DNA of 49,815 nucleotides, taken from assembly GCA_028285065.1 (NCBI GenBank), contig JANQQG010000252.1, positions 1-49,815 on the forward strand, given 5' to 3'. Origin of the DNA: Phycisphaerales bacterium (GTDB lineage Bacteria > Planctomycetota > Phycisphaerae > Phycisphaerales > UBA1924). The number at the start of each line of letters is the position of its first letter. The first letter of the stretch is position 1. Under the pieces are notes generated by a model that did not search any database, was not told the origin of the DNA, and saw nothing but the letters and a program-made list of their open reading frames with translations. Positions 9,995-42,334 of the stretch are shown in pieces. Position numbers and translations under genes: made by a program.

Positions 9995-10705
9995 ATGATC
10001 GACAAGCGGGTGGCGAGCGCACACGACGCGGTCGCCGACGTGTTCGACGGCGCGGTGGTGATGGTGGGCGGATTCGGCGAGGCCGGCAGCCCCATCGAAC
10101 TCATCCATGCGCTCATCGACCAGGGCGCATCGGACCTGACGATCGTCAGCAACAACACCGGGAGCGGCGAGGTCGGGCTCGCCGCGCTGCTCAAGGCCGG
10201 TCGGGTGCGGAAGTTCATCTGCTCGTTCCCGCGTACGGCCAACTCGACGGTGTTCCCGGAGCTGTACCGGGCGGGCAAGTGCGAGCTCGAGTTGGTGCCG
10301 CAGGGGACCCTTGCCGAGCGCATCCGGGCCGGCGGGGCGGGCATCCCCGCGTTCTACACGCCCGCGGCAGTCGGCACCCCGCTGGCTGAGGGCAAGGAAG
10401 CACGCACGTTCGATGGGCGCGAGTTCATCCTCGAGCGCGGGCTGGTCGCGGACTTCGCGCTGGTGAAGGGGCGCGAGGCCGACGCGTACGGGAACGTGCT
10501 GTACAACAAGACGGCCCGGAACTTCGGCCCGATCATGGCGATGGCCGCGAAGGTGGCGATCGTGCAGGCCGAGCGCGTTACCGATCCGGGCGAACTCGAT
10601 CCGGAGACGGTGGTCACGCCCGGGATCTTCGTGCAGCGCGTGGTCGAGGTCGCCGAGCCGGCCCACGAGTCTGAACTGGTCGCATCGGGAGTGTCGTACC
10701 CATGA
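9995..10705 (+). CDS. pcaI: 3-oxoacid/3-oxoadipate CoA-transferase subunit A
   Basis: MVGGFGEAGSPIELIHALIDQGASDLTIVSNN...CSFPR...ARNFGPIMAMAAKVAIVQ...VTPGIFVQRVV strongly resembles remembered PcaI sequences. Confidence 0.85.
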   Translation: MIDKRVASAHDAVADVFDGAVVMVGGFGEAGSPIELIHALIDQGASDLTIVSNNTGSGEVGLAALLKAGRVRKFICSFPRTANSTVFPELYRAGKCELELVPQGTLAERIRAGGAGIPAFYTPAAVGTPLAEGKEARTFDGREFILERGLVADFALVKGREADAYGNVLYNKTARNFGPIMAMAAKVAIVQAERVTDPGELDPETVVTPGIFVQRVVEVAEPAHESELVASGVSYP

Positions 10706-11373
10706 CGCAGGGCACCGCCACAGTTGGATGGACGCGGGAGCAGATGGCCGAGCGCGTGGCGTTGGACATCCCCAACGGCTCGTACGTGAACCTCGGGATC
10801 GGCATCCCGGAACTCGTCGCGAGGTTCGTCCCGAAGGGACGCACGCTGATCTACCACACCGAGAACGGGCTGCTCGGCATGGGCCCCTCGCCTGCGGAGG
10901 GCGCGGGCGATCCGGAACTGATCAACGCCGGCAAGCGACAGGTGACGGCGATCCCTGGGGCCGCGTACTTCCATCACGCCGACAGCTTCGCGATGATCCG
11001 CGGGGGGCACATCGATCTGTGCGTGCTGGGTGCGCTTCAGGTCGGGCAGAACGGCGACCTGGCCAACTGGTCGACCGGCGCGGAGGGCGCGATCCCGGCG
11101 GTGGGGGGGGCGATGGACCTGTGCGCAGGCGTGAAGTCGGTCTACGTGATCACGCAGCATTGCACGAAGCACGGCGACCCCAAGCTCGTCGAGTCGTGCA
11201 GCTTCCCGCTGACCGGGCTGGGCGTGGTCAACCGCGTGTACACGGACCTTGCAGTGCTCGACGTGACGCCCGAGGGGTTCCGCGCCGTCGAACTCAGCCC
11301 GGGCGTTGATCTCGAGTACGTCCGCGAGCGCACGGCGGCCCCCTTGTTGGCGCCCCAGGGAGGGTCGGACTGA
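10702..11373 (+). CDS. pcaJ: 3-oxoacid/3-oxoadipate CoA-transferase subunit B
   Basis: YVNLGIGIPELVARFVP...HTENGLLGMGPSP...FHHADSFAMIRGGHIDLCVLGALQV...GAMDLCAG resembles PcaJ; ATGA overlap with subunit A. Confidence 0.85.
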   Translation: MTQGTATVGWTREQMAERVALDIPNGSYVNLGIGIPELVARFVPKGRTLIYHTENGLLGMGPSPAEGAGDPELINAGKRQVTAIPGAAYFHHADSFAMIRGGHIDLCVLGALQVGQNGDLANWSTGAEGAIPAVGGAMDLCAGVKSVYVITQHCTKHGDPKLVESCSFPLTGLGVVNRVYTDLAVLDVTPEGFRAVELSPGVDLEYVRERTAAPLLAPQGGSD

Positions 11374-12689
11374 TGGCGCCCGAGACCGCGAAGACATCGC
11401 GCGCAGCCGAGTTGTACGAGCGAGCCAAGCACGTGCTCCCCGGCGGCGTGAGCCGCAATACCGTCCTTCGTCAGCCGCACCCGGACTACGCGGATTTCGG
11501 TCGCGGGTGCCACATCACCGACATCGACGGCGTGACGCGCACGGACTTCTCCAACAACATGTGCTCGCTGATCCACGGGCACGCGTGCCCGCAGGTGGTG
11601 CGCGCCGTTACGGAGCAGTTCCAGCGCGGCTCCGCGTTCATGATGGCGACCGAGGCGGAGGTTCGCTTCGCCGAGTACCTGTGCGCGCGCACCCCGTCGT
11701 TCGAGAAACTGCGCTTCACGAACTCGGGCACCGAGGCGATCCTGGTCTGCCTGAAGGCCTCTCGCGCCTTCACCGGACGCCCGATGATCGCGAAGCTCGA
11801 GGGCGCGTACCACGGCGGGTACGACTACGCCGAGGCCAGCCAGGCCCCCGAGCCGCACACATGGGGCGACTCGCACCGGCCGAATGCCGTCCCGCTCGTG
11901 CACGGCACGCCGAAGAAGGCGCTCGAAGATGTCGTGATCCTTCCGTTCAACGACATCGAGCTCGCCCTTGCGCGCCTTGACGAGCACAAGGACGACATCG
12001 CGTGCGTGCTGCTCGACCTGATGCCGCACCGCGTGGGGCTCAACCCCGCGGACCCCGAGTTCGTCAGCGCCATCCGAGAGTGGACGACGCGCAACGGGGC
12101 GCTGATGGTCCTCGATGAGGTCATCACCTACCGGTCGGAGTACTCCGGGCTCCAGTCGCGCTACGGGCTGACGCCTGACCTGACGGCCCTGGGCAAGATG
12201 ATCGGCGGCGGTTTCCCCGTCGGTGCCGTCGCCGGACGCGCGGACGTCATGGAACTCATGAACCCGCGCGGCGACCGATACCTCTTCCCCAACTCCGGGA
12301 CGTTCAGCGCGAACCCCATCAGCACGACAGCGGGCGTGGTCTCGATGGAGCTGTTCAGCGAGCCCGGTGTCGCACGGCTCAACTCGCTCGCCGATCGGGC
12401 GCGGTCCGGGATCGAGGCGGCGATCGAGCGCACCGGCGCGACGGCCTGCGTGACCGGCACGGGCTCGATGTTCCGCGTCCACATGAAGGCCGAGCGGCCA
12501 CGCAATTTCCGCGAGGCCTACCTCGGGCCGGAGGAAAACGCGAAGCTTCTCGCGCTGCTTGATCACCTCTACCACGCCGGCTTTCTGATGATCAACACGT
12601 GCACCGGCGCGCTCTCGACAGCGATGACCGAGGCGGACATCGACTCGCTCATCGAAGCGATGGAGAGCGGGCTCGCGAAGATCGCGTAG
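11373..12689 (+). CDS. Class III PLP aminotransferase / glutamate-1-semialdehyde aminomutase-like
   Basis: VLPGGVSRN; FTNSGTEAILVCLKASRAFTGR; LDEVITYR; PLP-lysine region LGKMIGGGFPVGAVAGR; TGATG overlap with the preceding gene. Confidence 0.88.
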   Translation: MAPETAKTSRAAELYERAKHVLPGGVSRNTVLRQPHPDYADFGRGCHITDIDGVTRTDFSNNMCSLIHGHACPQVVRAVTEQFQRGSAFMMATEAEVRFAEYLCARTPSFEKLRFTNSGTEAILVCLKASRAFTGRPMIAKLEGAYHGGYDYAEASQAPEPHTWGDSHRPNAVPLVHGTPKKALEDVVILPFNDIELALARLDEHKDDIACVLLDLMPHRVGLNPADPEFVSAIREWTTRNGALMVLDEVITYRSEYSGLQSRYGLTPDLTALGKMIGGGFPVGAVAGRADVMELMNPRGDRYLFPNSGTFSANPISTTAGVVSMELFSEPGVARLNSLADRARSGIEAAIERTGATACVTGTGSMFRVHMKAERPRNFREAYLGPEENAKLLALLDHLYHAGFLMINTCTGALSTAMTEADIDSLIEAMESGLAKIA

Positions 12690-12701
12690 ATCCGGTTCGC
12701 G

Positions 12702-13907
12702 CTATTCCCGTTCGAACACGCACGCCAGACCCTGCCCAACGCCGACGCACAGCGATGCGACGCCGCGCTCGACGCCTTCGCGGCGCATCTGGTGGACCAG
12801 CGTCGTGGCCAGGCGCGCGCCGCTGCACCCGAGGGGGTGCCCGATCGCGATGGCACCGCCTTGGGCGTTGACGCGGTCTTCGTCGAGGCCGAGCTCGCGC
12901 ACGCACGCGACCGACTGGGCAGCAAAGGCCTCGTTGAGCTCGATCAGCCCGAGGTCGTCCAGCCCGATCCCGGCGCGCTCGGCCGCCTTGCGGATCGCGG
13001 GCACTGGTCCCATCCCCATGTATGCGGGCTCGACCCCCGCCGAGGCGCTCGCCCCTACGTACGCGATCGGGGTCAGCCCGAGCGATGCCGCCCGCTCGGC
13101 CTCGACGAGCAACAACGCCGCGGCCCCATCGTTGACGCCGGACGAGTTCCCGGCGGTCACCGTGGCGTCGGCGTCCTTGGAGAACGCGGGCCGGAGCTTG
13201 GCGAGCTTCTCGAGCGTCGTGTCGGGGCGTGGGTGCTCGTCGGTGTCGACGGTGATCGGATCGCTTCGGCGTTGTGGGACCTGCACCGGGATCAGCTCAT
13301 CTGCGAACTTGCCCGCGTCGTGAGCCGTCGCCCAGCGCTGCTGGCTGCGCAGCGCGAACCTGTCCTGGTCCTCGCGGCTGACCCCGTGACGCTTGGCGAC
13401 GTTCTCCGCGGTCACGCCCAGTGCGTCGGTGTGTCCGAGCTCGGCCATGCGCGGGTTGGTGAAGCGCCAGCCGATCGACGTGTCGTAGAGCTCCTGCGTG
13501 CGTCCGTAAGACGACTCGGCCTTGCCGAGGACGTACGGCGCGCGGCTCATTGATTCGACGCCGCCCGCGATGAACACGTCCCCGTGCCCCGCCTCGATCA
13601 TCCGGGCCGCGACGATCACGGCCTCGAGCCCCGATGCGCACAGCCGGTTGACGGTCGCCCCGGGCACCGTCTCCGGTAGTCCTGCCAGCAGGGAAGCCAT
13701 CCGCGCCACGTTGCGGTTGTCCTCGCCCGACTGGTTGGCGGCCCCGAGGTAGACATCGTCGATGGTCGTCGGGTCGATCCCGCTCTGGGCAACGACGGAC
13801 CGGATGACGTGTGCCGCCATGTCGTCCGGACGGACGGAGGCGAGTGCTCCGGCGTAGCGGCCGATGGGGGTCCGAAGGGCGGTGATGACCGCGGCTCGTC
13901 GTTTCAT
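12702..13907 (-). CDS. pcaF: Acetyl-CoA acyltransferase / 3-oxoadipyl-CoA thiolase-like
   Basis: ALRTPIGRYAGAL; NRLCASGLEAV (nucleophilic Cys); GGVESMSRAPYV; GGAIAIGHPLGCSGAR; CVGVGQGLA. Closely resembles PcaF. Confidence 0.87.
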   Translation of the reverse strand: MKRRAAVITALRTPIGRYAGALASVRPDDMAAHVIRSVVAQSGIDPTTIDDVYLGAANQSGEDNRNVARMASLLAGLPETVPGATVNRLCASGLEAVIVAARMIEAGHGDVFIAGGVESMSRAPYVLGKAESSYGRTQELYDTSIGWRFTNPRMAELGHTDALGVTAENVAKRHGVSREDQDRFALRSQQRWATAHDAGKFADELIPVQVPQRRSDPITVDTDEHPRPDTTLEKLAKLRPAFSKDADATVTAGNSSGVNDGAAALLLVEAERAASLGLTPIAYVGASASAGVEPAYMGMGPVPAIRKAAERAGIGLDDLGLIELNEAFAAQSVACVRELGLDEDRVNAQGGAIAIGHPLGCSGARLATTLVHQMRREGVERGVASLCVGVGQGLACVFERE

Positions 13908-16167: not shown

Positions 16168-16193
16168 TATACTGCACTCACAGGTTCAGAACC
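16168..16193 (+). promoter_or_regulatory. Candidate promoter (-10 TATACT) plus dyad GGTTC-A-GAACC upstream of the rrf2 gene
   Basis: TATACT at 16168-16173; GGTTCAGAACC at 16183-16193; gene start at 16195/16204. Confidence 0.45.
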
Positions 16194-16203
16194 GTTGGCC
16201 CCC

Positions 16204-16692
16204 ATGAGGTTGGACAAGTTGATCCCGCAGACGAGCGAGTACGCCCTGCGTGCAGTCGTGCACCTGGCCCGGATCGGGGGCGGGCCAGCGGTCACCGACG
16301 ACATCGCCGAGGCCACCAAGGTGCCTGCGGGGTACCTTGCTCGCGTGCTCCGATCGCTGTCCAAGGCCGGGATCCTGACGGCGCAACGTGGGACCGGTGG
16401 GGGGTTTGCGCTCGCCAAGCCTGCCGGGAAGATCACCGTCTGGGACGTGCTCGAGGCCTCTGACGCCGGGATCGGGCGGATCGAGTCCTGCCCGTTGGGC
16501 ATCGCCGGGCACGGGACCTCCTTGTGCTCGCTGCACGCGCTGCTCGACAAGGCCATCGGCGAGGTCGAGTCCCTGTTCCGCGGCGCCACGATCCAGGACA
16601 TCCTCGTGTCCGACCGGACGTCCAAGCCGCTTTGCGACCCGACAGGCGCAACGGGCACGACCGGCCTGACGATCGACCGCTCCGACGCGTAG
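16204..16692 (+). CDS. Rrf2 family transcriptional regulator
   Basis: MRLDKLIPQTSEYALRAVVHLARIGGGPAVTDDIAEATKVPAGYLARVLRSLSKAGILTAQRGTGGGFALAKPAGKITVWDVL plus CPLGIAGHGTSLCSLH. Start could also be ATG 16195. Confidence 0.9.
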   Translation: MRLDKLIPQTSEYALRAVVHLARIGGGPAVTDDIAEATKVPAGYLARVLRSLSKAGILTAQRGTGGGFALAKPAGKITVWDVLEASDAGIGRIESCPLGIAGHGTSLCSLHALLDKAIGEVESLFRGATIQDILVSDRTSKPLCDPTGATGTTGLTIDRSDA

Positions 16693-16767
16693 GCCTCGGC
16701 CAACGCCCCCTCCCTCAAGCCGAGCTCCTGGGCAGTTGCACCCAGGCCCCAACTCCTCTATGCTTGT

Positions 16768-16781
16768 GAACATCTGTGTTC
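16768..16781. promoter_or_regulatory. Inverted repeat GAACA-N4-TGTTC upstream of the respiratory operon
   Basis: GAACATCTGTGTTC ends 11 nt before ATG 16793; preceded by TATGCT as a possible -10. Confidence 0.45.
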
Positions 16782-16792
16782 GGAAGTCCACA

Positions 16793-17560
16793 ATGACGAA
16801 CCCCGAAGCACCATCCAACACGCCAGGCCGGGAAGCGTCCCACGCCTCGCCCTCCACGGGCGCCGCCCCCGCCTTCAACCCTGGCTGGCTCCTGGGGCTC
16901 GGCTTCGTCGTGCTTGCGTGCGTCTTCTGGTTCAGTTCAGGTGGCGACCCGACGCCCGGCGCACCGACGCCCGCCTTCGACGTCGCGCTCCTGGATGCCG
17001 GACAACGCACAACGCTGTTGACGGACCCGCCGACGGTGCTGATCGCCGGGTTCGAGCAGCGCTGCAACGCCTGCCACAAGCTCTTCGAGTCGGACTCGGA
17101 CGGGACGCGCCCGCTGACCCAGCACGGGCACATCGAGCTTGCGCACGGGCTCAACGATCGCTGCTCGAACTGCCACGATCGGGACGACCGCGAACGCCTC
17201 GTGCTTCACGACGGGAGCAGCGTCCCCTACGCCGAGACGGCCACGCTGTGCGCGCAGTGCCACGGGCCGGTCTACCGCGACTGGCAGCGCGGCACGCACG
17301 GCAAGACGCTCGGCGCGTGGGACCTGACCTCGGCCGACGCGCAGCGCCTCAGCTGCACCGAGTGTCACGACGCGCACAGCCCCGCCTTCCCGGCGCTGCA
17401 CCCGTTGCCCGGGCCGAACACGCTCCGCATGGGCGAGCCCTCGTGGGGAGGTGGGCACCACGGGGCCCGCAACCCGCTGCGTCGATGGGCGGACCACGCC
17501 CACGACGGCGCCCACGAGCGCGAACACGAGCACGGCGATGACGACGGAGGTGAGCACTGA
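16793..17560 (+). CDS. Membrane-anchored tetraheme c-type cytochrome with His-rich C-terminus
   Basis: Four CxxCH motifs (CNACH, CSNCH, CAQCH, CTECH), one N-terminal TM segment, tail HAHDGAHEREHEHGDDDGGEH. Confidence 0.85.
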   Translation: MTNPEAPSNTPGREASHASPSTGAAPAFNPGWLLGLGFVVLACVFWFSSGGDPTPGAPTPAFDVALLDAGQRTTLLTDPPTVLIAGFEQRCNACHKLFESDSDGTRPLTQHGHIELAHGLNDRCSNCHDRDDRERLVLHDGSSVPYAETATLCAQCHGPVYRDWQRGTHGKTLGAWDLTSADAQRLSCTECHDAHSPAFPALHPLPGPNTLRMGEPSWGGGHHGARNPLRRWADHAHDGAHEREHEHGDDDGGEH

Positions 17561-18588
17561 TGAGACTCCCCGTGCTCAACAAGTCGGCCGGAGCGTGTTC
17601 GAAGAGCCCGCGCCCTGCTCACCCGGGCATGACGCGACGCAGCTTCCTGCGCCGGGGCGCCGTCGCGACCGGTGGGCTCGCTGCGCTCGCGGCTTCGCTG
17701 AGCCCCTTGCGTGATCTGGACGGCACCGATTCGTTCAGTGTGCAGAAGTTCCTGCAGAAGCACTACAAGGAGATGTCGCCGGAGGAGATGGAGGGGGCTT
17801 TGGATCGGATCCGCTCCGAGGTCGAGCGCCGGTACGAGGTGCGTCCGGAGATCCGGGACATCAAGGCGATGGACGGCGTGGAGTTCGTGTACGCGCTCAA
17901 CCTGAGCCGCTGCATCGGCTGCCGTAAGTGCGTGCACGCGTGTGTGGCGGAGAACAACCAGAGCCGTGATCCGGAGATCCAGTACATCCGGGTGCTTGAG
18001 ATGCCGCGCGGATCGATCGACATCGAGGACGGGAACCACCACTACGACCGTCCGACGGTGCCCGCAGAGGGGCACTACTACATGCCCATCCAGTGCCACC
18101 AGTGCGCGAACCCCCCGTGCGTGAAGGTGTGCCCGGTGGAGGCGACGTGGCAGGAGCCGGACGGGATCACGGTCATCGATTACGACTGGTGCATCGGGTG
18201 CCGCTATTGCGAGGCGGCGTGTCCGTACTGGGCCCGCCGGTTCAACTTCTCGAAGCCGTCGCTTCCGAAGGACGAGCTCAACCCCGAGATGTCGTACCTC
18301 TCCAACCGTCCCCGGCAGAGGGGCGTGATGGAGAAGTGCCACTTCTGTCTGCACCGCACGCGTCAGGGCCGCATGCCGGCGTGCCTCGAGATCTGCCCGA
18401 CGGGCGCCCGCAAGTTCGGCAACGTGCTGGACCCGGAGAGTGAGGTCTCGCAGATCCTCAAGAGCAAGCGCGTCTTCGTCCTCAAGGCCGAGGTCGGCAC
18501 GCTCCCTCGGTTCTTCTACTACTTCGACGAGCGCGACCCGTTCTCCCAGATGACGCCGATCCCTGCTGGGACGGAGGGTGGGTCATGA
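17560..18588 (+). CDS. Tat-exported 4Fe-4S ferredoxin-type electron transfer protein (NrfC/HybA/PsrB-like)
   Basis: Tat motif MTRRSFLRRGAVATGG; four Cys clusters: CIGCRKCVHAC, CHQCANPPCVKVCP, CIGCRYCEAACP, CHFC...CLEICP. Confidence 0.9.
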   Translation: MRLPVLNKSAGACSKSPRPAHPGMTRRSFLRRGAVATGGLAALAASLSPLRDLDGTDSFSVQKFLQKHYKEMSPEEMEGALDRIRSEVERRYEVRPEIRDIKAMDGVEFVYALNLSRCIGCRKCVHACVAENNQSRDPEIQYIRVLEMPRGSIDIEDGNHHYDRPTVPAEGHYYMPIQCHQCANPPCVKVCPVEATWQEPDGITVIDYDWCIGCRYCEAACPYWARRFNFSKPSLPKDELNPEMSYLSNRPRQRGVMEKCHFCLHRTRQGRMPACLEICPTGARKFGNVLDPESEVSQILKSKRVFVLKAEVGTLPRFFYYFDERDPFSQMTPIPAGTEGGS

Positions 18589-19841
18589 GGGAGTACGCAC
18601 GATTCCTCTGGCGGTGCTGGCGCCTGAGCTTCCACGGCGACTGGAAGTACCTGACGTGGATGTTCCTGCTGACCGTCATCTCGCTCATCGGCCTCAACGC
18701 CTACGCCAAGCAGCTCGTGTACGGCCTTTCTACAACGGGCATGACCGACCACGTCTCGTGGGGGCTGTACATCGCGAACTTCACGTTCCTCGTCGGTGTG
18801 GCGGCGGCCGCCGTGATGCTCGTGATCCCGGTCTACGTCTACAAGAAGCACGAGCTGCACGACCTGGTGATCCTGGGCGAGTTGCTCGCGGTTGCCGCGA
18901 TCATCATGTGCCTGCTGTTCGTGATGGTGGACCTCGGTCGTCCGGAGCGGTTCCACCACCTGCTGCTGCGCTTCAACTTCCCGATCTCGATGCTGACGTG
19001 GGACGTCGTGGTGCTCAACGGCTACCTGCTGCTCAACCTGCACATCTGCGGGTACCTGGTGTACTGCGCGTACAGGAACCGGCGTCCGACCAAGAAGTTC
19101 TACATCCCGTTCGTCTTCGTCGCGATCGTCTGGGCGATCAGCATCCACACGGTGACGGCCTTCCTGTACTCGGGCCTCGGGGGTCGTCCGTTCTGGAACT
19201 CGGCGGTGATCGCGCCCCGGTTCATCGCGTCGGCCTTCGCTGCGGGTCCGGCGATCATCATCCTGACGCTTCAAGTCATCCGTGCGATGACGACGTACCC
19301 CGTCGCGGACAAGGCGATCCAGCTTCTGCGTGGGATCGTCACAGTCGCGTTGAGCATCAACATGTTCCTGCTCGGCTCCGAGGTGTTCACGGAGTTCTAC
19401 ACGGGCGCGGCGCACTCCGTGTCGGCCAGGTACCTGTTCTTCGGGCTGCACGGGCACAACGCGTTGGTGCCGTGGATCTGGACGGCCGTCGCGCTCAACA
19501 TGGCTGCGCTCATCGTCCTGTGCACGCCGGCGGCCCGTCGCCTGTGGGTCCTGAACCTGGCGTGCGTCGCGATGATCGTCGGGATCTGGATCGAGAAGGG
19601 CATGGGCCTGATCGTGCCCGCCTTCGTCCCATCACCTCTGGGTGAGATCGTGGAGTACACGCCGACCTGGAACGAGATCCTCGTGGGTCTCGGCATCTGG
19701 GCGTTCGGCATCCTGCTCTACACGATCTTCGTTCGCATCACCATCCCGGTCCTGCAGGGCCGTCTGACCATCGATGTCCGGTACCCAACCGGCAAGCAAC
19801 AGCACACCAACAAGGACGCGGGTCGTCCCGCGACCGCCTGA
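18585..19841 (+). CDS. nrfD: NrfD/PsrC family polytopic membrane subunit
   Basis: Multiple TM helices, WGLYIANFTFLVGVAAAAVMLVIPVYVY, DLGRPERFHH; 4-nt overlap with the Fe-S protein gene. Confidence 0.9.
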   Translation: MREYARFLWRCWRLSFHGDWKYLTWMFLLTVISLIGLNAYAKQLVYGLSTTGMTDHVSWGLYIANFTFLVGVAAAAVMLVIPVYVYKKHELHDLVILGELLAVAAIIMCLLFVMVDLGRPERFHHLLLRFNFPISMLTWDVVVLNGYLLLNLHICGYLVYCAYRNRRPTKKFYIPFVFVAIVWAISIHTVTAFLYSGLGGRPFWNSAVIAPRFIASAFAAGPAIIILTLQVIRAMTTYPVADKAIQLLRGIVTVALSINMFLLGSEVFTEFYTGAAHSVSARYLFFGLHGHNALVPWIWTAVALNMAALIVLCTPAARRLWVLNLACVAMIVGIWIEKGMGLIVPAFVPSPLGEIVEYTPTWNEILVGLGIWAFGILLYTIFVRITIPVLQGRLTIDVRYPTGKQQHTNKDAGRPATA

Positions 19842-19857
19842 CGTGAGGAGGCTGTCA

Positions 19858-21315
19858 ATGAGGATCAACACCGCCAATCGAGTCCGCCAACTCCTGTGCG
19901 CGACGATCGTCGTGGGCGCCGCCTCGTCGGCCTCGGCCCAGTCGTTCGCTCCCGCGGAGATGAGCGCGCAGACGAAGAAGTGCCTCGAGTGCCACCGCGA
20001 ACTCGACCACGGGCTGTACCAGCAGTGGGGCGAGAGCAAGCACTTCGGCGCCAACGTCGGCTGCTACGAGTGCCACGGCGCCGACGAAGGCGACGCCGAC
20101 GGATGGATGCACGAGGGCACACTCATCTCCGTCCTGGTCACCCCGAAGGACTGCGGACGCTGCCACACCAAGGAGGCCGCCGAGTTCGCCGCCTCGCACC
20201 ACTCCAAGGGTGGGCGCATCCTTGGGTCGCTCGACAACGTCCTCGCCGAGGTCGTCGAGGGCAACCGTGGCATGGTCACGCCGGCCTTCCCCGACGGGAT
20301 CGCGGCGTCAGCGGTCAACGGCTGCTGGCAGTGCCACGGCTCGGAGGTCAAGGTGCTGGCCAACGGTCGTCTTGACCCCGCGACCTACCCCAACAGCGGG
20401 ATCGGGCGGATCAACCCGGACGGCTCGGAGGGGGCCTGCAACGCGTGCCACCTCCGCCATGAGTTCGACGTCGCCCAGGTGCGCCATCCGGACACCTGCG
20501 GCAAGTGCCACATGGGCCCGGACCACCCGCAGATCGAGATCTACAACGAGTCCAAGCACGGGATCGCGTTCCGCTCGCAGATCGACGAGATGAACATGGA
20601 CTCGTCGAAGTGGGTCGTCGGCGAGGACTACTGGGCCGCCCCGACCTGCGCGACGTGCCACATGTCCGCGACGGACACGCAGCCGATCACGCACGACATC
20701 GGGATGCGGATCAGCTGGAACAACCGTCCGGCGATCTCCATCCGTCCCGAGGTCTCCGACGCGAAGCTCGGCCTGCCCGGCAAGGACGTGCCCTGGCAGG
20801 TGCGCCGCGCCAACATGCAGGACGTCTGCACGGCCTGCCACGAGCAGCAGTGGGTCGACAACTTCTACATCCAGTACGACGCGCTGATCGAGCTGTACCA
20901 CGAGAAGTTCGCCAAGCCGGGCCTCGAGCTCTACAAGCTCGCCAAGCCCCTGATGCGCCCCGTCGCGTTCGGCAACAAGATCGACTTCATCTGGTTCGAG
21001 ATCTGGCACCACGAGGGCCGGCGCCTCCGTCACGGCGTCTCGATGATGGGGCCTGACTACACGCACTGGCACGGGACCTACGAGGTCGCCAAGCACTTCT
21101 ACGTCGAGTACATCCCCGAGCTCGAAGAGCTCGCCGAGAAGCACCTCGACAGCGACGACCCCGACAAGAGGGCTGCCGCGCAGGCGCTGCACGACAAGCT
21201 CGAAGAGGTCCTCAACGACGAGAACCACCGTTGGTACCTCGGCAAGATGGACCCCGAAGAGGCTGCGCGACGCAAGGCCGCTCAGGAAGAGTTCAAGGAC
21301 CGCTACGAGAAGTGA
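19858..21315 (+). CDS. Octaheme c-type cytochrome of the hydroxylamine oxidoreductase (HAO) family
   Basis: Sec signal (TIVVGAASSASAQ); eight CxxCH: CLECH, CYECH, CGRCH, CWQCH, CNACH, CGKCH, CATCH, CTACH; HAO-type strings GCWQCHGSEV and CGKCHMGPDHPQIEIYNESKHGI. Confidence 0.85.
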   Translation: MRINTANRVRQLLCATIVVGAASSASAQSFAPAEMSAQTKKCLECHRELDHGLYQQWGESKHFGANVGCYECHGADEGDADGWMHEGTLISVLVTPKDCGRCHTKEAAEFAASHHSKGGRILGSLDNVLAEVVEGNRGMVTPAFPDGIAASAVNGCWQCHGSEVKVLANGRLDPATYPNSGIGRINPDGSEGACNACHLRHEFDVAQVRHPDTCGKCHMGPDHPQIEIYNESKHGIAFRSQIDEMNMDSSKWVVGEDYWAAPTCATCHMSATDTQPITHDIGMRISWNNRPAISIRPEVSDAKLGLPGKDVPWQVRRANMQDVCTACHEQQWVDNFYIQYDALIELYHEKFAKPGLELYKLAKPLMRPVAFGNKIDFIWFEIWHHEGRRLRHGVSMMGPDYTHWHGTYEVAKHFYVEYIPELEELAEKHLDSDDPDKRAAAQALHDKLEEVLNDENHRWYLGKMDPEEAARRKAAQEEFKDRYEK

Positions 21316-21776
21316 TGGGAGGCGATGCGCCCATGCAGCGGCTGACCGAACAGGACGCCAAGACGGCCCTCGGTGATCACGTCGAGGCCAAGGCCAACGA
21401 GGCCAGGCTGAGCCACGGCCTGTACATCGATGCGGACGCCATCGTGCGCATGCTCGACGACCGCGCCGTCGTGCGCTACCCCGTCGGCGTCCGCTTCGAC
21501 GCCGAGCCGCTCGAGCCGGGTGAGTTTGCCTGGCCCATGGCGCTCGGCGAGCACCCGTCGGCCGGCTTCTGCCTGTTCGTGCATCCGTGGTTCGAGAACC
21601 AGCCGGACGCGTGGCCCCTGCTGTTCGCGTACCACATCCCCTCCATCAACTACGGCGACATCGTCGCGCACGAGGACGCCGAGCGCTACGGGGCTGCCCT
21701 GCTCGGCATGACCGTCGAGGACTACTACGGCGCGCTCTGCGAGCTCGTCGATTCGATCCCGGAGGCAGGCGCATGA
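21315..21776 (+). CDS. Small protein of unknown function in the HAO-like cluster
   Basis: MGGDAPMQRLTEQDAKTALGDHVEAKANEARLSHGLYIDADAIVRMLDDRAVVRYPVGVRFDAEPLEPGEF...; TGATG overlap with the HAO-like stop and ATGA overlap with resB. Start may instead be ATG 21333. Confidence 0.7.
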   Translation: MGGDAPMQRLTEQDAKTALGDHVEAKANEARLSHGLYIDADAIVRMLDDRAVVRYPVGVRFDAEPLEPGEFAWPMALGEHPSAGFCLFVHPWFENQPDAWPLLFAYHIPSINYGDIVAHEDAERYGAALLGMTVEDYYGALCELVDSIPEAGA

Positions 21777-23722
21777 AGCCGGCACGCGATTGGCATCACA
21801 CGACGCTCGGGCGCACCGTCCTCTTCCTCGGCGGGATCCGCTTCGCGGTGCCCGTCCTCCTGCTCGTGGCCGCTGCGCTCGCGTGGGGCACGTGGATCGA
21901 GTCCACCTCCGAGGCCGCCAACGCGGCACGCCTCGTCTACGGGTCCTGGTGGTTCATCGCCCTGATGGCGCTGATCTGCCTGAGCCTCGTGCTCTCGGTG
22001 ATCACGCGATTCCCGTGGCGGCGCAAGCACATCGGCTTCATCACCGTTCACGCAAGCCTCGTCATGCTCGTCGTCTCGGCGTTCGTGTCGTTCTTCACGC
22101 GGGTCGAGGGGCAGATCGCCCTGAGCGAGGGCGAGCAGGCCGCGGCGTTCCAACTCAAGGAGCGCCAGATCGAGATCCTCAGCCACGACGCGGGCCAGTT
22201 CTTGCCGGAGGGCGTGCTGTCGGTCGATGGTGTCGCGGCGTTCGAGGTCGCGGGCGTGCCCGTGCGCATCGACGAGCGCTGGGCGAACACGACCGAGGAG
22301 TTCCGTGTCACCGACGACGGCGCCAATCCGCTTCACGCCGTCGAGATCCGTCCGGCGGCCGGTGAGCCTGTCTGGGTCGGACAGTCCGAGGCGAGCCAGC
22401 CGCCGCAGGATCTCGGTGGCGTGTACGTGCGCGTCCTGCCGGTCGGTGAGTCGTTTGCGCCGGCAGCAGCGCCGCTGGAGCTGACGCTGCTCACGCAGGA
22501 CGGCTCGCGCCGGAGCGTCCCCGAGGCGGGGACGGCGATCGGTGAGAGCGGATGGACCGTCGAGGCCGTCGAGCACTTCGAGCGTGCGACCGTCACCGCC
22601 GATGGCCTCGCCGAGCGAGAGGACGGCGCGCCCAACCCGAGCGTGATGGTCCACCTGGTCCACACCGACGGCTCTCGCGAGCGTCACATCGCGTTCGAGC
22701 GCTTCAATGACAGCATCCACAAGAAGACGCTCGCGGGTGAGTCGCACTCGCCCTACGCGGTCCAGTTCGTTGGAGCCCCGACCTACGCACCCCTGATCAC
22801 GTTCGAGCGGGTGGACGGCGTGTCGCGCGTGACGATCACTGGCGACGTCGAGCCCGAGCGGTTCGAGCAACCCGCCAACGGCGCGTGGCAGATCGACTCG
22901 GCAATCGTCGGCATGTTCGAGGTCGCTCAGGAGTTCACGCACGCTCGGGGTGGTACCAGCCTCGTCGAAGCCCCCGGCGGCGACAACACGCGTCCCGCCC
23001 TTGTCATCTCCTACGGCGAGGGTGAGCACACGACCACGGCGATCCTCCCCTGGACCCAGCGGGTGCCGCTGCAGTTCGGCGATGAGGTCCGCATGCTCCG
23101 CTACGGGCCGGTGCTCCATGACCTGCCCTTCACGATACAGCTGGCCGACTTCCGCAAGCTCGACTACCCGGGCACTGACAACGCGATGGCGTACGAGTCG
23201 GACGTGAACGTCACGTTCGACGATGCCGACGCGGCGCCGACGGGCACGACCATCTCGATGAACAAGCCGCTCGAGCACGAGGGCTGGAAGGTCTACCAGT
23301 CCGGGTTCCTCGGGAGCGGGATCTCCGTCTTCCAGGTGACCCGCGATCCCGGGCTCGGGCCCACGTACGTCGCATGCACGGCCCTTTGCATCGGCATCCT
23401 GATCACGTTCTACAGCCGGTCGCTGAGCCGCGGGCATCCGGGCATGCCCGCCCCGTTCGGCGCGACCGCGCACGCTGCGACATCCGACGCCGCAACCACC
23501 AACACCGGAGGCGCACGCCATGCGGCTGCCGTTCGTACTGCTCTGTCTGCTGTTTCCGATCCTGCCGGCAACGGCGTCTGCACAGGCGACGTCCAAGACG
23601 ACACCCGAAGCAACGCGGATCATGGCGTCGCTGCCGATCCAGCACCAGGGCCGGGTGATGCCGTGGTCCACGTACGCCGATCGCGTCGCGGTGCAGCTGA
23701 CCGGGCGCACGAGCTGGTCTGA
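21773..23722 (+). CDS. resB: ResB-like cytochrome c biogenesis protein
   Basis: MKPARDWHHTTLGRTVLFLGGIRFAVPVLLLVAAALAWGTWIES...HASLVMLVVSAFVSFF...EHEGWKVYQSGFL. Last ~200 nt overlap ccsA out of frame. Confidence 0.82.
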   Translation: MKPARDWHHTTLGRTVLFLGGIRFAVPVLLLVAAALAWGTWIESTSEAANAARLVYGSWWFIALMALICLSLVLSVITRFPWRRKHIGFITVHASLVMLVVSAFVSFFTRVEGQIALSEGEQAAAFQLKERQIEILSHDAGQFLPEGVLSVDGVAAFEVAGVPVRIDERWANTTEEFRVTDDGANPLHAVEIRPAAGEPVWVGQSEASQPPQDLGGVYVRVLPVGESFAPAAAPLELTLLTQDGSRRSVPEAGTAIGESGWTVEAVEHFERATVTADGLAEREDGAPNPSVMVHLVHTDGSRERHIAFERFNDSIHKKTLAGESHSPYAVQFVGAPTYAPLITFERVDGVSRVTITGDVEPERFEQPANGAWQIDSAIVGMFEVAQEFTHARGGTSLVEAPGGDNTRPALVISYGEGEHTTTAILPWTQRVPLQFGDEVRMLRYGPVLHDLPFTIQLADFRKLDYPGTDNAMAYESDVNVTFDDADAAPTGTTISMNKPLEHEGWKVYQSGFLGSGISVFQVTRDPGLGPTYVACTALCIGILITFYSRSLSRGHPGMPAPFGATAHAATSDAATTNTGGARHAAAVRTALSAVSDPAGNGVCTGDVQDDTRSNADHGVAADPAPGPGDAVVHVRRSRRGAADRAHELV

Positions 23723-25226
23723 GTCGCGCGGGCCGGAGGCGTTCGCGGGCCGTGACTCGCTCGAGCTCTTGGGCGACCTGATGTTCCGCCCGCAGGCGCT
23801 CGCGTCGATGGAGCTGATCCGTCTGGACCGGCGCCCGCTCAAGAAGCAGGTCGGTCTGGATGAAGAGCGCCGGTTCTTCTCCGCGAATGAGCTCGTGATG
23901 AACCGTGGGCTCGCCGAAGTCGCCGACGGGTACCGCGCGCGCCGGAAGGCCGACGCGAAGGCGCGCCCGACGCCGGACGAGAAGGCCGCCCTCGAGACGC
24001 AGGAGTCGCTCGGGCTGTTCATGATGTTCGCCGATGGAATGCCTCTGGCGATCGTGCCCAACGAGGCCGACCCTGCGTTCCTGCGCGCGAGCGCGACGAT
24101 CAGCGATCCTGGCGCGGGCGATGTGCAGGCGGCGCTGGCCGCGCTCGGGGCGGCATGGGGGACGCCCGATGCGCTCGATGCGGCAAAGGGCCTGGCATCG
24201 ATCATCGACGCATCACCCGCGTACACCGACGTGACCAAGAGCCGCGTGGCGCAAGAGGTCTTCTACAACGACCACGGCCCATGGAAGTGGGCGGCCATTG
24301 CGAGCGGGCTCTCGCTGCTCGCCCTCCTGTTCGGCTGGCTGACGCGCTGGAAGCCCGCGTACGTCGGCGCCGGGCTGCTCATCGCGTGGGCAGTGGGGGA
24401 GCAGCTGCTCGGCCTGGGCCTGCGGATATCGATCCTCGGTCGTGCGCCCGTGTCCAACACCTACGAGGCCTTGTTGTGGATGGGTCTGGTCGCGGTGGCT
24501 GTCGGGCTCGTCGGGCAGGTGCTCAGCCGCAAGAGCTGGTACCTCGCCGGCGGGATGGCCGCCTCGATGATCGCCATGCTCTTCGCGATGCTCGTACCGC
24601 TGGCCGACCAGACCAACACGCTGCCCGCGGTGCTCCGGAGCAACTATTGGCTGATCCTGCACGTGCTCACGATTGTCGCGTCGTACGGCGCGTTGCTCCT
24701 CGCGGCCGTGCTTGGGCATGTCTACCTGATCCGCAACGTCCTGATGCGCCGCCCCGACTCGGACCAGCAATCACGGGTCATCGTCCAGGTCTACCGCGTC
24801 ATGCAGCTCGGACTCGTGCTGCTGACGATCGGGACGATCCTGGGCGGCGTCTGGGCCGCGGACTCCTGGGGACGCTTCTGGGGCTGGGATCCCAAGGAGA
24901 CGTGGTCGCTGATCAGCATCATCGTCTACTTCGCGTTGATCCATGCCCGGTACGTCGGGTGGCTGCGTGACACGGGGCTGGCCGTCGCCTCGATCATCGG
25001 CTTCATGGCGATCGTCTGGACGTTCTACGGCGTCAACTACGTCATGGCCTCCGGCCTGCACAGCTACGGCTTCGGCTCGGGCGGTGAGGTCTACGTCGCG
25101 GCATGGGCCGGTGTTGAGGCGCTCTTCGTCGGCGCGTGCCTGCTCGTCGCGCGTTCGCAGCGGACAAGGCGGACCGCGCCGTCACCGACGACGTCCGGCG
25201 CAAGCGCTCTTGCGACAGCCCCATGA
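23520..25226 (+). CDS. ccsA: Cytochrome c biogenesis protein CcsA/CcmF-CcsA domain
   Basis: Haem-handling motif WGRFWGWDPKETWSLISIIVYFALIHARYVGW and multiple TM helices. Confidence 0.9.
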   Translation: MRLPFVLLCLLFPILPATASAQATSKTTPEATRIMASLPIQHQGRVMPWSTYADRVAVQLTGRTSWSESRGPEAFAGRDSLELLGDLMFRPQALASMELIRLDRRPLKKQVGLDEERRFFSANELVMNRGLAEVADGYRARRKADAKARPTPDEKAALETQESLGLFMMFADGMPLAIVPNEADPAFLRASATISDPGAGDVQAALAALGAAWGTPDALDAAKGLASIIDASPAYTDVTKSRVAQEVFYNDHGPWKWAAIASGLSLLALLFGWLTRWKPAYVGAGLLIAWAVGEQLLGLGLRISILGRAPVSNTYEALLWMGLVAVAVGLVGQVLSRKSWYLAGGMAASMIAMLFAMLVPLADQTNTLPAVLRSNYWLILHVLTIVASYGALLLAAVLGHVYLIRNVLMRRPDSDQQSRVIVQVYRVMQLGLVLLTIGTILGGVWAADSWGRFWGWDPKETWSLISIIVYFALIHARYVGWLRDTGLAVASIIGFMAIVWTFYGVNYVMASGLHSYGFGSGGEVYVAAWAGVEALFVGACLLVARSQRTRRTAPSPTTSGASALATAP

Positions 25227-25271
25227 GCAAGGTGGAGCCGGGACCGCGGCTCCCCAGGAAGGAGTTCACCG

Positions 25272-26654
25272 ATGCCCGTTCTCACCAGCCCGCACCTGCT
25301 CGCGCTGACGTGTGCCTTCACCGCGGCGCCGATGCTCGTTGCACAGGACTCCGAGACGCAGCCCGCGGACGCGCAGCCTGCTGATGCCGAGATCGCGCCG
25401 GACGTCGCTGACGCGCCGGCCGCCGACGCGGGCGAGGCCAAGCACGGTTTCGGCTTCCTGTCCGATCCGGACGAGGAGCCCAATGACATCTTCGAGGCGC
25501 TGACCGGCGGGAAGGTCCATTTCGACAACCGCTTCCGTATCGAACTCGCCGACACCACCGGTGCCGACTCATCCACCGCCATCACGAACCGCATCCGACT
25601 CGGCCACGAGACCAAGTCGTACCACGGGTTCAGCGGCTTCATCGAGATGGAGAACGTCTCGACGCTCGACGAGGGCAACTACTACGTACCCGCGACCGGC
25701 GACGGGACCGACACGAGGACCGTTGTCGCCGACCCGACCGGTACCGAGGTCAACCAGGCGTACCTGCGTTACCACGAGGCCTCGACCTTCGACTCCGGCA
25801 TCTCGCTCGATGTCCGTGCCGGGCGTCAGCGGATCATCCTCGACGACAGCCGCTTCGTCGGCAACGTTGGTTGGCGTCAGTTCGAGCAGACCTACGACGC
25901 CGTGCGCCTCGAATCCGACCTCGGCGTCGAGGGGCTGGGCGCGCAGTACGCGTACGTCTGGCGCGTCCAGCGCATCTTCGGCCCGGACGGGCCGAACTGG
26001 GATTCCAACTCGCACTTCGTCAACGTCTCGTACGTCGTCTCGCCTGAGTTGAAGGTCACCCCCTTCGCGTACCTGCTCGACTTCGACGACGACTCGCCGA
26101 TGAACTCCGTCAACACCTACGGCATCCGCCTCACGGGCGCCCTCTTCAAGGATGCCGAAGACGAGCGTGACTTGTTCGTCGACTACGAGTTCACCTACGC
26201 ACGTCAGAGCGACACCGGCGACAATCCCGTGGACTTCGAGGCCGATTTCGTCGCGATCCAGGGGAAGGTGACCAAGAAGGGGCTCGGTGCTGCGGTCGTT
26301 GGCTACCAACTGCTCGGCAGCGACGATGGCGCCTTCGGCTTCCGCTTCCCCCTCGGCACCAATCACAAGTTCCAGGGCTTCGCCGATCTCTTCCTCGTGA
26401 CTCCCGCAACCGGGCTCCAGGATCTCTACGTTGGCGGGTCGTTGGACCTGCCCTATGGCGTCAAGTCAGGGGCCGTGTTCCACCAGTTCTGGTCGGACGA
26501 GGGCGGCATGGACCTCGGGTACGAGCTCGACGTCGTCGCGAGCAAGAAGATCAACAAGAACTGGTCGGTGCTGGTCAAGGGCGCGTACTTCGACGGGCAC
26601 AACGGGCTGCCGGACACGACCCGGGCCTGGTTCCAGACGACGCTCCACTTCTAA
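25272..26654 (+). CDS. Outer-membrane beta-barrel protein (alginate export-like porin)
   Basis: Signal-like N-terminus, alternating beta-strand pattern (FDNRFRIELADTTGADSSTAITNRIRLGHETKSYHGFSGFIEMENVS; VRAGRQRIILDDSRFVG), C-term ...AWFQTTLHF ending in Phe. Confidence 0.78.
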   Translation: MPVLTSPHLLALTCAFTAAPMLVAQDSETQPADAQPADAEIAPDVADAPAADAGEAKHGFGFLSDPDEEPNDIFEALTGGKVHFDNRFRIELADTTGADSSTAITNRIRLGHETKSYHGFSGFIEMENVSTLDEGNYYVPATGDGTDTRTVVADPTGTEVNQAYLRYHEASTFDSGISLDVRAGRQRIILDDSRFVGNVGWRQFEQTYDAVRLESDLGVEGLGAQYAYVWRVQRIFGPDGPNWDSNSHFVNVSYVVSPELKVTPFAYLLDFDDDSPMNSVNTYGIRLTGALFKDAEDERDLFVDYEFTYARQSDTGDNPVDFEADFVAIQGKVTKKGLGAAVVGYQLLGSDDGAFGFRFPLGTNHKFQGFADLFLVTPATGLQDLYVGGSLDLPYGVKSGAVFHQFWSDEGGMDLGYELDVVASKKINKNWSVLVKGAYFDGHNGLPDTTRAWFQTTLHF

Positions 26655-26689
26655 GCCGGCGGCTCGATTGCGTCGATCAAGGCTGATGG

Positions 26690-27277
26690 ATGGACACACC
26701 TCCGCCGAACCTCGAGCAGGAGATCTGGCGACGCCTCGCCAGCGCCGCGGGTGATCCGCTCGACCCGATGCGCCTGTGCACCGTTGCGACGGTGCTCGAG
26801 GAGGGCGGCGCCGACGCACGCCTGCTGCTGCTGCGCGGGGCCGACGCGGACGAGCGCGTCCTGTGGTTCCATTGCGACCGGCGCTCGCGCAAGGTGCGGC
26901 AGCTCAAGCTCGAGCCGAACGCGGCCGTCGTCTGCTACGACCCCGAGGCGAAGATCCAGTTCCGGATGGCCGGCGAGGTCTCGATCCACGAGGACGATGC
27001 GATCGCGGACCAGCACTGGGCCCAGCTCGAGTTCGCCGCCCGTGACCGCTACGCCCAGGCGCCCGAGCCCGATGTCGAGCTCAGCGAGATCGACCCGAGG
27101 CTGGCCCGTCAGGTCCGCGACGTCGAGCGCTCGGGCGAGGTGCACGGTCGCGAGAACTTCGCGGCTCTGATGTGCGTCGTCAGCTCCATCGACTGGCTCC
27201 GCCTGGGCGAGGGCGCCGATGCGCATGCCGTGATGCGCCGTGATGAGGGATGGCGTGCGCGGCTGCTGACGTCATAG
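26690..27277 (+). CDS. Pyridoxamine 5'-phosphate oxidase-like FMN-binding protein
   Basis: MRLCTVATV...LLLLRGADADERVLWFHCDRRSRKVRQLKLEPNAAVVCYDPEAKIQFRMAGEVSIH. Confidence 0.82.
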   Translation: MDTPPPNLEQEIWRRLASAAGDPLDPMRLCTVATVLEEGGADARLLLLRGADADERVLWFHCDRRSRKVRQLKLEPNAAVVCYDPEAKIQFRMAGEVSIHEDDAIADQHWAQLEFAARDRYAQAPEPDVELSEIDPRLARQVRDVERSGEVHGRENFAALMCVVSSIDWLRLGEGADAHAVMRRDEGWRARLLTS

Positions 27278-36767: not shown

Positions 36768-38273
36768 TTGCCAGAGAAAGCCCCCAAACCCGATGCTCCC
36801 CCGGTCTCTCCACCTTCCACACCGGCGCTGCCCAACCCCTTGATCAACGACGACCTCGCCCCTGTGGCGGACAGCGCCCGCACCTGGAGCGCCTGGAACA
36901 TCGCAGCGCTCTGGATCGGCATGTCCGTGTGCATCCCGACCTACATGCTCGCTGCGAGCATGATCGACGCCGGCATGAACTGGTGGCAGGCGACGCTGAC
37001 CGTGCTCGCCGGCAACATGATCGTCCTGATCCCGATGGTCCTCAACGGGCATGCCGGCACCAAGCTCGGCGTCCCGTTCCCCGTGCTCGCCCGCGCGAGC
37101 TTCGGCACAGCCGGCGCGCACATCCCTTCCGTAGCGCGTTCGCTCGTCGCCTGCGGGTGGTTCGGGATCCAGTGCTGGATCGGTGGCGCCGCGATCTACA
37201 CGATCCTCGGCGTCCTCGGCCTGTTCGATCCGGGTCAGGACACCACGCTGCTGCCCGTGCTGGGCATCACCGCGATCCAGTTCGCCTGCTTCATGGCATT
37301 CTGGCTCGTGCATGTCGTCGTCGTCGTGCGTGGGGTCGAGTCGATCAAGCACCTCGAGTCCTGGGCCGCTCCGTTCCTGATCGCCTCGGGCCTCGCGCTC
37401 TTGATCTGGGCGATCGCGAGCGTCGATGAGCCGTCCAAGCTCTTCTCGACCGAGACGAACTTCGCGGAGGGCCAGAGTTTCTGGCGGGTCTTCGTACCGC
37501 AGCTGACCGCGATGGTCGGTTTCTGGGCGACGCTCAGCCTGAACATCCCCGACTTCACGCGCTACGCCAAGTCGCAGAAGAGCCAGGCCGCCGGCCAACT
37601 CATCGGGCTCCCGCCGACCATGACGCTGTTTTGCTTCATCGGCATCATCGTGACCGGCGCCACCATCGTGCTCTACGGCGACGCGATCTGGGACCCCGTC
37701 GAGCTCGTAGCCAAGATGGGCTCGCCGACCATCGTTGTGATCTCCATGATCGCGCTCGTCCTCGCGACGCTCTCGACCAATCTCGCGGCCAACGTCGTCA
37801 GCCCCGCCAACGGGTTCTCGAATCTCGCCCCGCGCCTGATCAGCTTCCGCGTCGGCGGACTCGCGACGTGTGCGATCGGCGTCCTGATGATGCCGTGGCG
37901 CCTGCTCGACGAGGTCGGGGACTACATCTTCACATGGCTGATCGGCTACAGCGCCCTGCTCGGCCCGATCATCGGCATCCTCCTGTGCGACTACTTCATC
38001 ATCCGCAGGACCAGGATCGATGTCGATGAGCTCTACGAGCGACACGGGCGCTTCGCGGGCGTCAACTGGCGGGCCATCGTGGCGCTCGTCGTCGCGATCC
38101 TGCCGAACCTGCCCGGCTTCATCAACGCCGCGACGAAGAAGGCGGTCTTTGCGCCCGGCTTCGACCTGATCTACGGCTACGCCTGGTTCATCGGCGTCGG
38201 CATCGGCGCCGTCGTGTACTGGGGGCTCATGACGCTCATGCCGCCCGCATCCGTCCGAGAGGCAACACAATGA
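36768..38273 (+). CDS. NCS1 family nucleobase/hydantoin permease
   Basis: WSAWNIAALWIGMSVCIPTYMLAASMIDAGMNWWQATLTVLAGNMIVLIPMVLNGHAGTKLGVPFPVLARASFG; TTG start 1 nt after the preceding stop. Confidence 0.9.
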   Translation: MPEKAPKPDAPPVSPPSTPALPNPLINDDLAPVADSARTWSAWNIAALWIGMSVCIPTYMLAASMIDAGMNWWQATLTVLAGNMIVLIPMVLNGHAGTKLGVPFPVLARASFGTAGAHIPSVARSLVACGWFGIQCWIGGAAIYTILGVLGLFDPGQDTTLLPVLGITAIQFACFMAFWLVHVVVVVRGVESIKHLESWAAPFLIASGLALLIWAIASVDEPSKLFSTETNFAEGQSFWRVFVPQLTAMVGFWATLSLNIPDFTRYAKSQKSQAAGQLIGLPPTMTLFCFIGIIVTGATIVLYGDAIWDPVELVAKMGSPTIVVISMIALVLATLSTNLAANVVSPANGFSNLAPRLISFRVGGLATCAIGVLMMPWRLLDEVGDYIFTWLIGYSALLGPIIGILLCDYFIIRRTRIDVDELYERHGRFAGVNWRAIVALVVAILPNLPGFINAATKKAVFAPGFDLIYGYAWFIGVGIGAVVYWGLMTLMPPASVREATQ

Positions 38274-39634: not shown

Positions 39635-39652
39635 TACGAAGGGAGGGGCGCG

Positions 39653-41059: not shown

Positions 41060-41065
41060 CCGAGC

Positions 41066-42214: not shown

Positions 42215-42298
42215 CGCGCGTCCCTCCGGGCTCGGTGCTGAGCAAACCGCGAGTATACCGACTCCTACGCGTCGGGCCCCGGAGCGGCCGACCAAAGA

Positions 42299-42334
42299 AC
42301 GACGCCCCACGCTTCAGGGAGCGCGGGGCGTCGT
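42299..42334 (-). terminator. Hairpin terminator downstream of the fibro-slime gene
   Basis: Arms ACGACGCCCCACGC / GCGCGGGGCGTCGT (one mismatch), 8-nt loop; on the minus strand followed by TCTTTGG. Confidence 0.7.

Follow-up and report, generated by a model that had tools for sequence, protein, structure and literature searches.

The window analysed here, a stretch of 49,815 nucleotides from a Phycisphaerales bacterium, carries a gene block that probably serves nitrite reduction without NrfA, be it respiratory or electron-dissipating. Electrons would pass from quinol via an NrfD/FeS pair and a tetrahaem cytochrome (C4) to an octahaem cytochrome c (OCC), with ammonium as the most likely product. 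When NrfA, NirK and NirS are lacking, a genome is commonly taken to have no capacity for nitrite reduction. Judged from sequence and genomic context, the cassette most likely represents a widespread alternative to the textbook enzyme NrfA, its function being predicted. A first-pass annotation had described a respiratory module at 16168-27277. All genes claimed for it were found on the + strand, as placed, by profile and motif scans:

16204-16692, + strand: Rrf2-family regulator (PF02082, 3.6e-25; cysteine motif CPL...LCxLH)
about 16793-17560, + strand: C4, periplasmic tetrahaem cytochrome c with a single-TM anchor (4 CxxCH; weak Cytochrom_c3_2/C7 matches)
17560-18588, + strand: FeS, Tat-exported, DsrO/NrfC-like (Tat motif RRSFLRRG; four Fe4S4-type Cys sets; PF13247)
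18585-19841, + strand: NrfD/DsrP-type membrane subunit, quinol-oxidising by family (PF03916, 6.7e-41)
19858-21315, + strand: OCC, BOGUAY_0691-clade octahaem cytochrome c and putative nitrite reductase (8 CxxCH)
21315 or 21333 to 21776, + strand: U6, conserved protein of ~149 aa without a family match
21773-23722, + strand: ResB, system II cytochrome c maturation (PF05140, 3.3e-25)
23520-25226, + strand: CcsA/CcsB haem-delivery subunit, system II (PF01578, 6e-32; TIGR03144, 154.8 bits, under the cut-off of 187.6)
25272-26654, + strand: Alginate_exp-type outer-membrane porin, possible anion entry (PF13372, 2.5e-10)
26690-27277, + strand: PNPOx-type flavoprotein, last gene, outside the conserved block

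The start/stop overlaps between neighbouring genes are as annotated, and the motif counts given for the octahaem protein, the membrane cytochrome and the FeS protein (eight, four and four) are exact. The cytochrome c maturation genes are confirmed by their ResB and CcsA/CcsB matches, and NrfA and a molybdopterin subunit are indeed absent from the block. Within it, no protein other than OCC is plausible as a terminal enzyme. The PNPOx-type gene was excluded as a block member, as it is not conserved alongside the block. The ORFs of ResB and CcsA share about 200 nt; a similar overlap is seen between their homologous matches in locus L131. Elsewhere in the window, 9995-13907 codes for two CoA-transferase subunits, a class III aminotransferase and a thiolase, which points to ketone-body or amino-acid catabolism. 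An apparent pyrimidine-catabolism cluster (36864-42310) comprises a cytosine/uracil permease, a class III aminotransferase, a dihydropyrimidinase-like amidohydrolase and, on the opposite strand, a dihydroorotate-dehydrogenase-like protein.

A genome scan for OCC returned 214 encoded relatives, the best 80 of which (62-84% identity) were used as loci. Carriers of OCC belong to Planctomycetota, Verrucomicrobiota, Kiritimatiellota, Cloacimonadota, Hydrogenedentota and others. The order C4-FeS-NrfD-OCC occurs in 53 of the 63 loci among these best 80 that have at least 3.6 kb of upstream sequence, and it spans Planctomycetota, Verrucomicrobiota and others. Recurrence of a four-gene order on this scale places the arrangement far beyond chance; conserved synteny had been proposed as a check in the first-pass annotation. 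In 46 of the best 80 loci, U6 is found no more than 1.2 kb downstream of OCC. ResB is near OCC in only five of the 80 (L001, L002, L012, L014 and L037), so that dedicated maturation genes appear to have been added in certain lineages; the position of ResB in L001 and L002 is the same as in the window. L037 is rearranged (OCC-ResB-CcsA-C4-FeS-NrfD-U6). Homologues of the Rrf2 regulator (39-46% identity) occur in OCC- or Nap-linked C4-FeS-NrfD clusters (L134, L129, L144, L145 and L146), and these proteins share the motif CPL...LCPLH.

A porin cluster was found in 23 loci. Porin and multihaem proteins together could make up an extracellular or metal-reducing conduit that carries electrons outward. 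This is scarcely credible, as the porin fits the Alginate_exp family and not an MtrB-type barrel, is missing from most loci, and OCC aligns with HAO-type enzymes. For nitrite reduction, the porin may provide anion entry.

OCC has a biochemically assayed relative, BOGUAY_0691, an orange octahaem cytochrome from Beggiatoaceae (Cand. Maribeggiatoa) (PMC6449678). Locus L094 carries this gene, since each of the four published primers (sequences taken from PMC6449678) matches it without mismatch. OCC and BOGUAY_0691 show 61% identity over 494 aligned columns. They fall into a common clade (SH-aLRT 98) in a tree of OCC relatives and pieces of IhOCC from Ignicoccus hospitalis, the latter forming the longest branch. 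Native BOGUAY_0691 is described in PMC6449678, with reference to MacGregor 2013, as reducing nitrite and oxidising hydroxylamine and hydrazine in vitro. Its activity was low (0.003-0.3 umol/min/mg), and the recombinant protein was far less active than the native one (PMC6449678). The direction of the reaction is unproven, as BOGUAY_0691 is also oxidative in vitro. BOGUAY_0691 and the Thiomargarita OCC genes are solitary and lack the NrfD module; beside BOGUAY_0691 there is no C4, FeS, NrfD, U6 or ResB/CcsA. The NrfD wiring of the octahaem thus belongs to other lineages. Genomes of the T. nelsonii order (G001, G029, G033 and others) each code for several paralogous octahaem families (identity to OCC as query, 45-55% and about 30-37%), and some of these paralogues adjoin a nine-haem membrane cytochrome.

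Searches of solved structures agree on the nearest relative. The best PDB match by sequence is IhOCC (4qo5, 3e-51), with HAO next, and a profile search returned IhOCC (4qo5, 1.6e-71) followed by HAOr and HAO at about 1e-25. Chains of ONR, MccA and Otr are not among the PDB matches at E<=1. A motif scan of OCC found neither CxxCK, the catalytic haem of TvNiR-type ONR, nor CX15CH, the haem site of MccA. On these grounds, TvNiR-type ONR and MccA sulfite reductase were rejected as identities of OCC, as was hydrazine dehydrogenase (NF052343, 68 bits versus a cut-off of 900). The name Onr, taken to mean a TvNiR-type enzyme, does not fit OCC, since CxxCK is lacking. The AF2 model of OCC is poor (pLDDT 66.7), so its Foldseek matches to 4qo5 and HAO (TM about 0.3; 4n4n and 1fgj with E about 1e-6) are weak corroboration. 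A candidate for the tyrosine that is cross-linked to the catalytic haem in HAO, Tyr401, is Trp in BOGUAY_0691, and the HAO C-terminal region did not align.

The substrate is indicated by nitrate and nitrite genes. NapA is nearby in 21 of the best 80 OCC loci, and in some of them (L020, L024, L041 and L080) it lies directly 3' of OCC on the same strand. Five NapA proteins were scanned; four exceed the curated cut-off and the fifth, from L056, reaches 639 versus 904. Co-occurrence was analyzed across the class in 299 genomes, 29 with and 270 without OCC, and the resulting p-values are uncorrected for kinship. NrfA (scored by PF02335, with E<1e-50 in genomes with OCC) is found in 0/29 genomes with OCC versus 56/270 without (p=0.002), while NarG is found in 8/29 versus 3/270 (p=4e-7). 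Seven of the eight cases of NarG with OCC come from one family; within it, NarG occurs in 7/14 members with OCC versus 0/14 OCC-less members counted (p=0.006). The corresponding figures for NapA are 4/29 and 14/270 (p=0.08), and three of these four adjoin OCC. In 11 of the 29 genomes, OCC occurs without the NrfD module (family f18 genomes; L138-L141, L150 and L151), and there the octahaem would be served by a different electron donor. Six of these 11 have NarG. In the genome of the window (G000, 87% complete), no NapA, NarG, NrfA or NirK was found, although absence is not proof at this completeness. With no nitrate reductase seen, nitrite would have to come from outside the cell.

The first-pass annotation had proposed a quinone-coupled system that reduces nitrite, NO, hydroxylamine or another small oxyanion. 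Quinone-coupled reduction of a nitrogen oxyanion is upheld, and the choice of substrates narrows: from the association with NapA and NarG, the exclusion of NrfA and the assayed relative BOGUAY_0691, nitrite appears to be the best-supported substrate of OCC.

The HAOr of Kuenenia reduces nitrite to NO. OCC lies within the HAO fold family, and NirK is missing from all 29 genomes of the class that have OCC. OCC might accordingly stop at NO, as a substitute for NirK/NirS in denitrification rather than in ammonification, which is how a Phycisphaerae survey read it (PMC11266412). We consider this unlikely, and ammonium is preferred over NO for three reasons. OCC and NrfA are mutually exclusive, which suggests that an ammonifying enzyme has been replaced. 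The two PF00115 matches in the window genome (87% complete) resemble caa3- and cbb3-type respiratory oxidases, and none is NorB-like. Finally, Thermosulfurimonas dismutans makes ammonium although it lacks NrfA, and it carries a similar locus next to nap (PMC5276818, PMC4911364).

The electron-delivery genes are not tied to OCC. NrfD with at least 58% identity is encoded in 27 of the 299 genomes of the class, 18 with and 9 without OCC. In all nine OCC-less genomes, NrfD is located 2.1-2.6 kb from NapA (hypergeometric 1e-13), with C4-FeS-NrfD divergent to NapA. Four of the nine retain U6, three of these being from the window's own family. The module thus serves Nap, OCC or both, and C4-FeS-NrfD(-U6) has the look of an exchangeable unit that oxidises quinol on behalf of periplasmic nitrogen-oxyanion reductases. 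A second, more distant copy of C4-FeS-NrfD is found in one genome (L142, G168:C12:339000-357000). It adjoins a NapB-like cytochrome; no NapA or OCC was found there. At another locus (L143, G129:C168), an FeS-NrfD pair with 49-51% identity adjoins a 13-haem cytochrome that has a C4-like end and is possibly another partner of the module.

The sharing of the donor module also bears on the direction of electron flow. OCC might oxidise hydroxylamine, hydrazine or NO and feed electrons via C4-FeS-NrfD into the quinone pool, or it might detoxify NO or hydroxylamine. Such a role would match the hydroxylamine and hydrazine oxidation described for BOGUAY_0691 in PMC6449678, and an organism in which terminal oxidases are present and nitrate reductase was not seen. 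It is nevertheless quite improbable: the same donor module is used by NapA, a reductase; OCC is associated with NarG/NapA and excludes NrfA; and no haoB/c554-type partner (haoB, c554 or cM552, by Pfam/NCBIfam) occurs in the block.

U6 has no match in Pfam or NCBIfam. Its AF2 model is confident (pLDDT 95.5), and no PDB fold match was obtained at E<=0.001. As no signal peptide is evident, the protein is probably cytoplasmic. U6 was found in 15 genomes, adjoining OCC in 11 and within Nap-linked modules in 4. Such confinement to modules linked with OCC or Nap (15/15 genomes) points to U6 as an accessory or maturation factor. Some homologues have Cys-rich C-terminal tails (CGGGCSCH in L024, GCGTGCGCHG in L064). 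There is an about even chance that C4-FeS-NrfD, supplemented by U6 in the closest subgroup, constitutes a hitherto undescribed quinol-dehydrogenase adaptor to which either NapA or a BOGUAY_0691-type octahaem can dock interchangeably. This would give NrfA-free nitrate/nitrite ammonification in Planctomycetota, Verrucomicrobiota and several other phyla, and U6 would then be a novel protein that assists periplasmic N-oxyanion reductases as an accessory factor.

The NrfD subunit passes the curated NCBIfam model for DsrP (428.8 bits, cut-off 350), and FeS scores 177 bits against that for DsrO (cut-off 200). By family (PF03916), an NrfC/NrfD-type pair is present, and it is closer to DsrOP than to NrfCD. 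The mcc operon (MccABCD-CcsA1) brings together an octahaem, NrfC/D and cytochrome maturation genes, and the block appears to share this layout. A sulfur oxyanion (sulfite or tetrathionate) is thus conceivable as the substrate of OCC. We rate it as very unlikely, as OCC has neither the CX15CH site nor an MccA or OTR match in the PDB at E<=1, the recurrent neighbours are nap genes, and no sulfur genes were recognised in the block.

For nitrite reduction, we envisage the following sequence of events. In the NrfD/DsrP families, NrfD oxidises quinol and passes electrons to an FeS subunit, and in NrfABCD the periplasmic relay is NrfB. By this parallel, C4 is likely to be the periplasmic relay here. 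Quinol would be oxidised by NrfD in the inner membrane, and electrons would cross the Tat-exported FeS protein by way of its four clusters and reach membrane-anchored C4. Periplasmic OCC would take electrons from C4 and use them on nitrite, most likely in a six-electron reduction that yields ammonium. The twelve c-haems would be matured by ResB/CcsA. The window organism would draw its nitrite from the environment, possibly through the porin. The Rrf2 regulator possibly responds to NO, nitrite or FeS status. In related genomes, C4-FeS-NrfD(-U6) would act as a general electron-delivery unit that is coupled to NapA, with or without OCC.

Parts of this system have been noted in the literature. For T. 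dismutans, which grows by reduction of nitrate to ammonium and lacks NrfA, a four-gene locus (cytochrome, FeS, NrfD, HAO-like) beside nap was noted, and nitrite reduction was hypothesised (PMC5276818, PMC4911364). A nap-hao cluster was described in Deferribacter (PMC6896113). OCCs of Phycisphaerae, found with a Hao HMM, were called putative Onr, and a cultured carrier, Po. corsica, is reported to code for the octahaem (PMC11266412). The module can thus not be called undescribed, as the first-pass annotation had suggested: the clade has an assayed member, and both the T. dismutans locus and the putative Onr were already published. The five-gene unit, U6, the pairing with Nap or OCC, the exclusion of NrfA and the link to BOGUAY_0691 are not in the reports on those systems. 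Present in numerous uncultured Planctomycetota and Verrucomicrobiota, C4-FeS-NrfD-OCC-U6 is a signature that can be searched for, and it makes it possible to test how these lineages contribute to the retention or loss of fixed nitrogen. The activities measured in vitro for BOGUAY_0691 had lacked an obvious role, and its octahaem clade now gains a physiological setting. U6, in turn, is conserved and has a confident fold prediction without a solved counterpart.

Compared with known systems, OCC resembles BOGUAY_0691 over its full length (61% identity), with eight CxxCH and a shared clade, but BOGUAY_0691 is a solitary gene whereas OCC sits in a C4-FeS-NrfD cassette. IhOCC (4qo5), the nearest solved relative, is archaeal and distant. 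HAO, KsHAOr and HDH share the octahaem fold family, and HAO has eight CxxCH as well, but their similarity to OCC is far weaker. DsrMKJOP is matched in NrfD, which is DsrP by cut-off, and in the DsrO-like FeS. It differs in that the block has no DsrM, DsrK or DsrJ and the terminal partner is OCC or Nap. By its published description, the T. dismutans locus (TDIS_0606-0609) has an HAO-like multihaem cytochrome, NrfD, a 4Fe-4S protein and a second TM cytochrome beside napMADGH; U6, ResB/CcsA, the porin and Rrf2 are not reported there. NrfABCD has the same plan, an NrfCD-type quinol dehydrogenase, a periplasmic multihaem relay and a multihaem terminal enzyme. Its relay, NrfB, is a soluble pentahaem protein, whereas C4 is a membrane-anchored tetrahaem, and its terminal enzyme is the pentahaem NrfA, in place of which the block has OCC.
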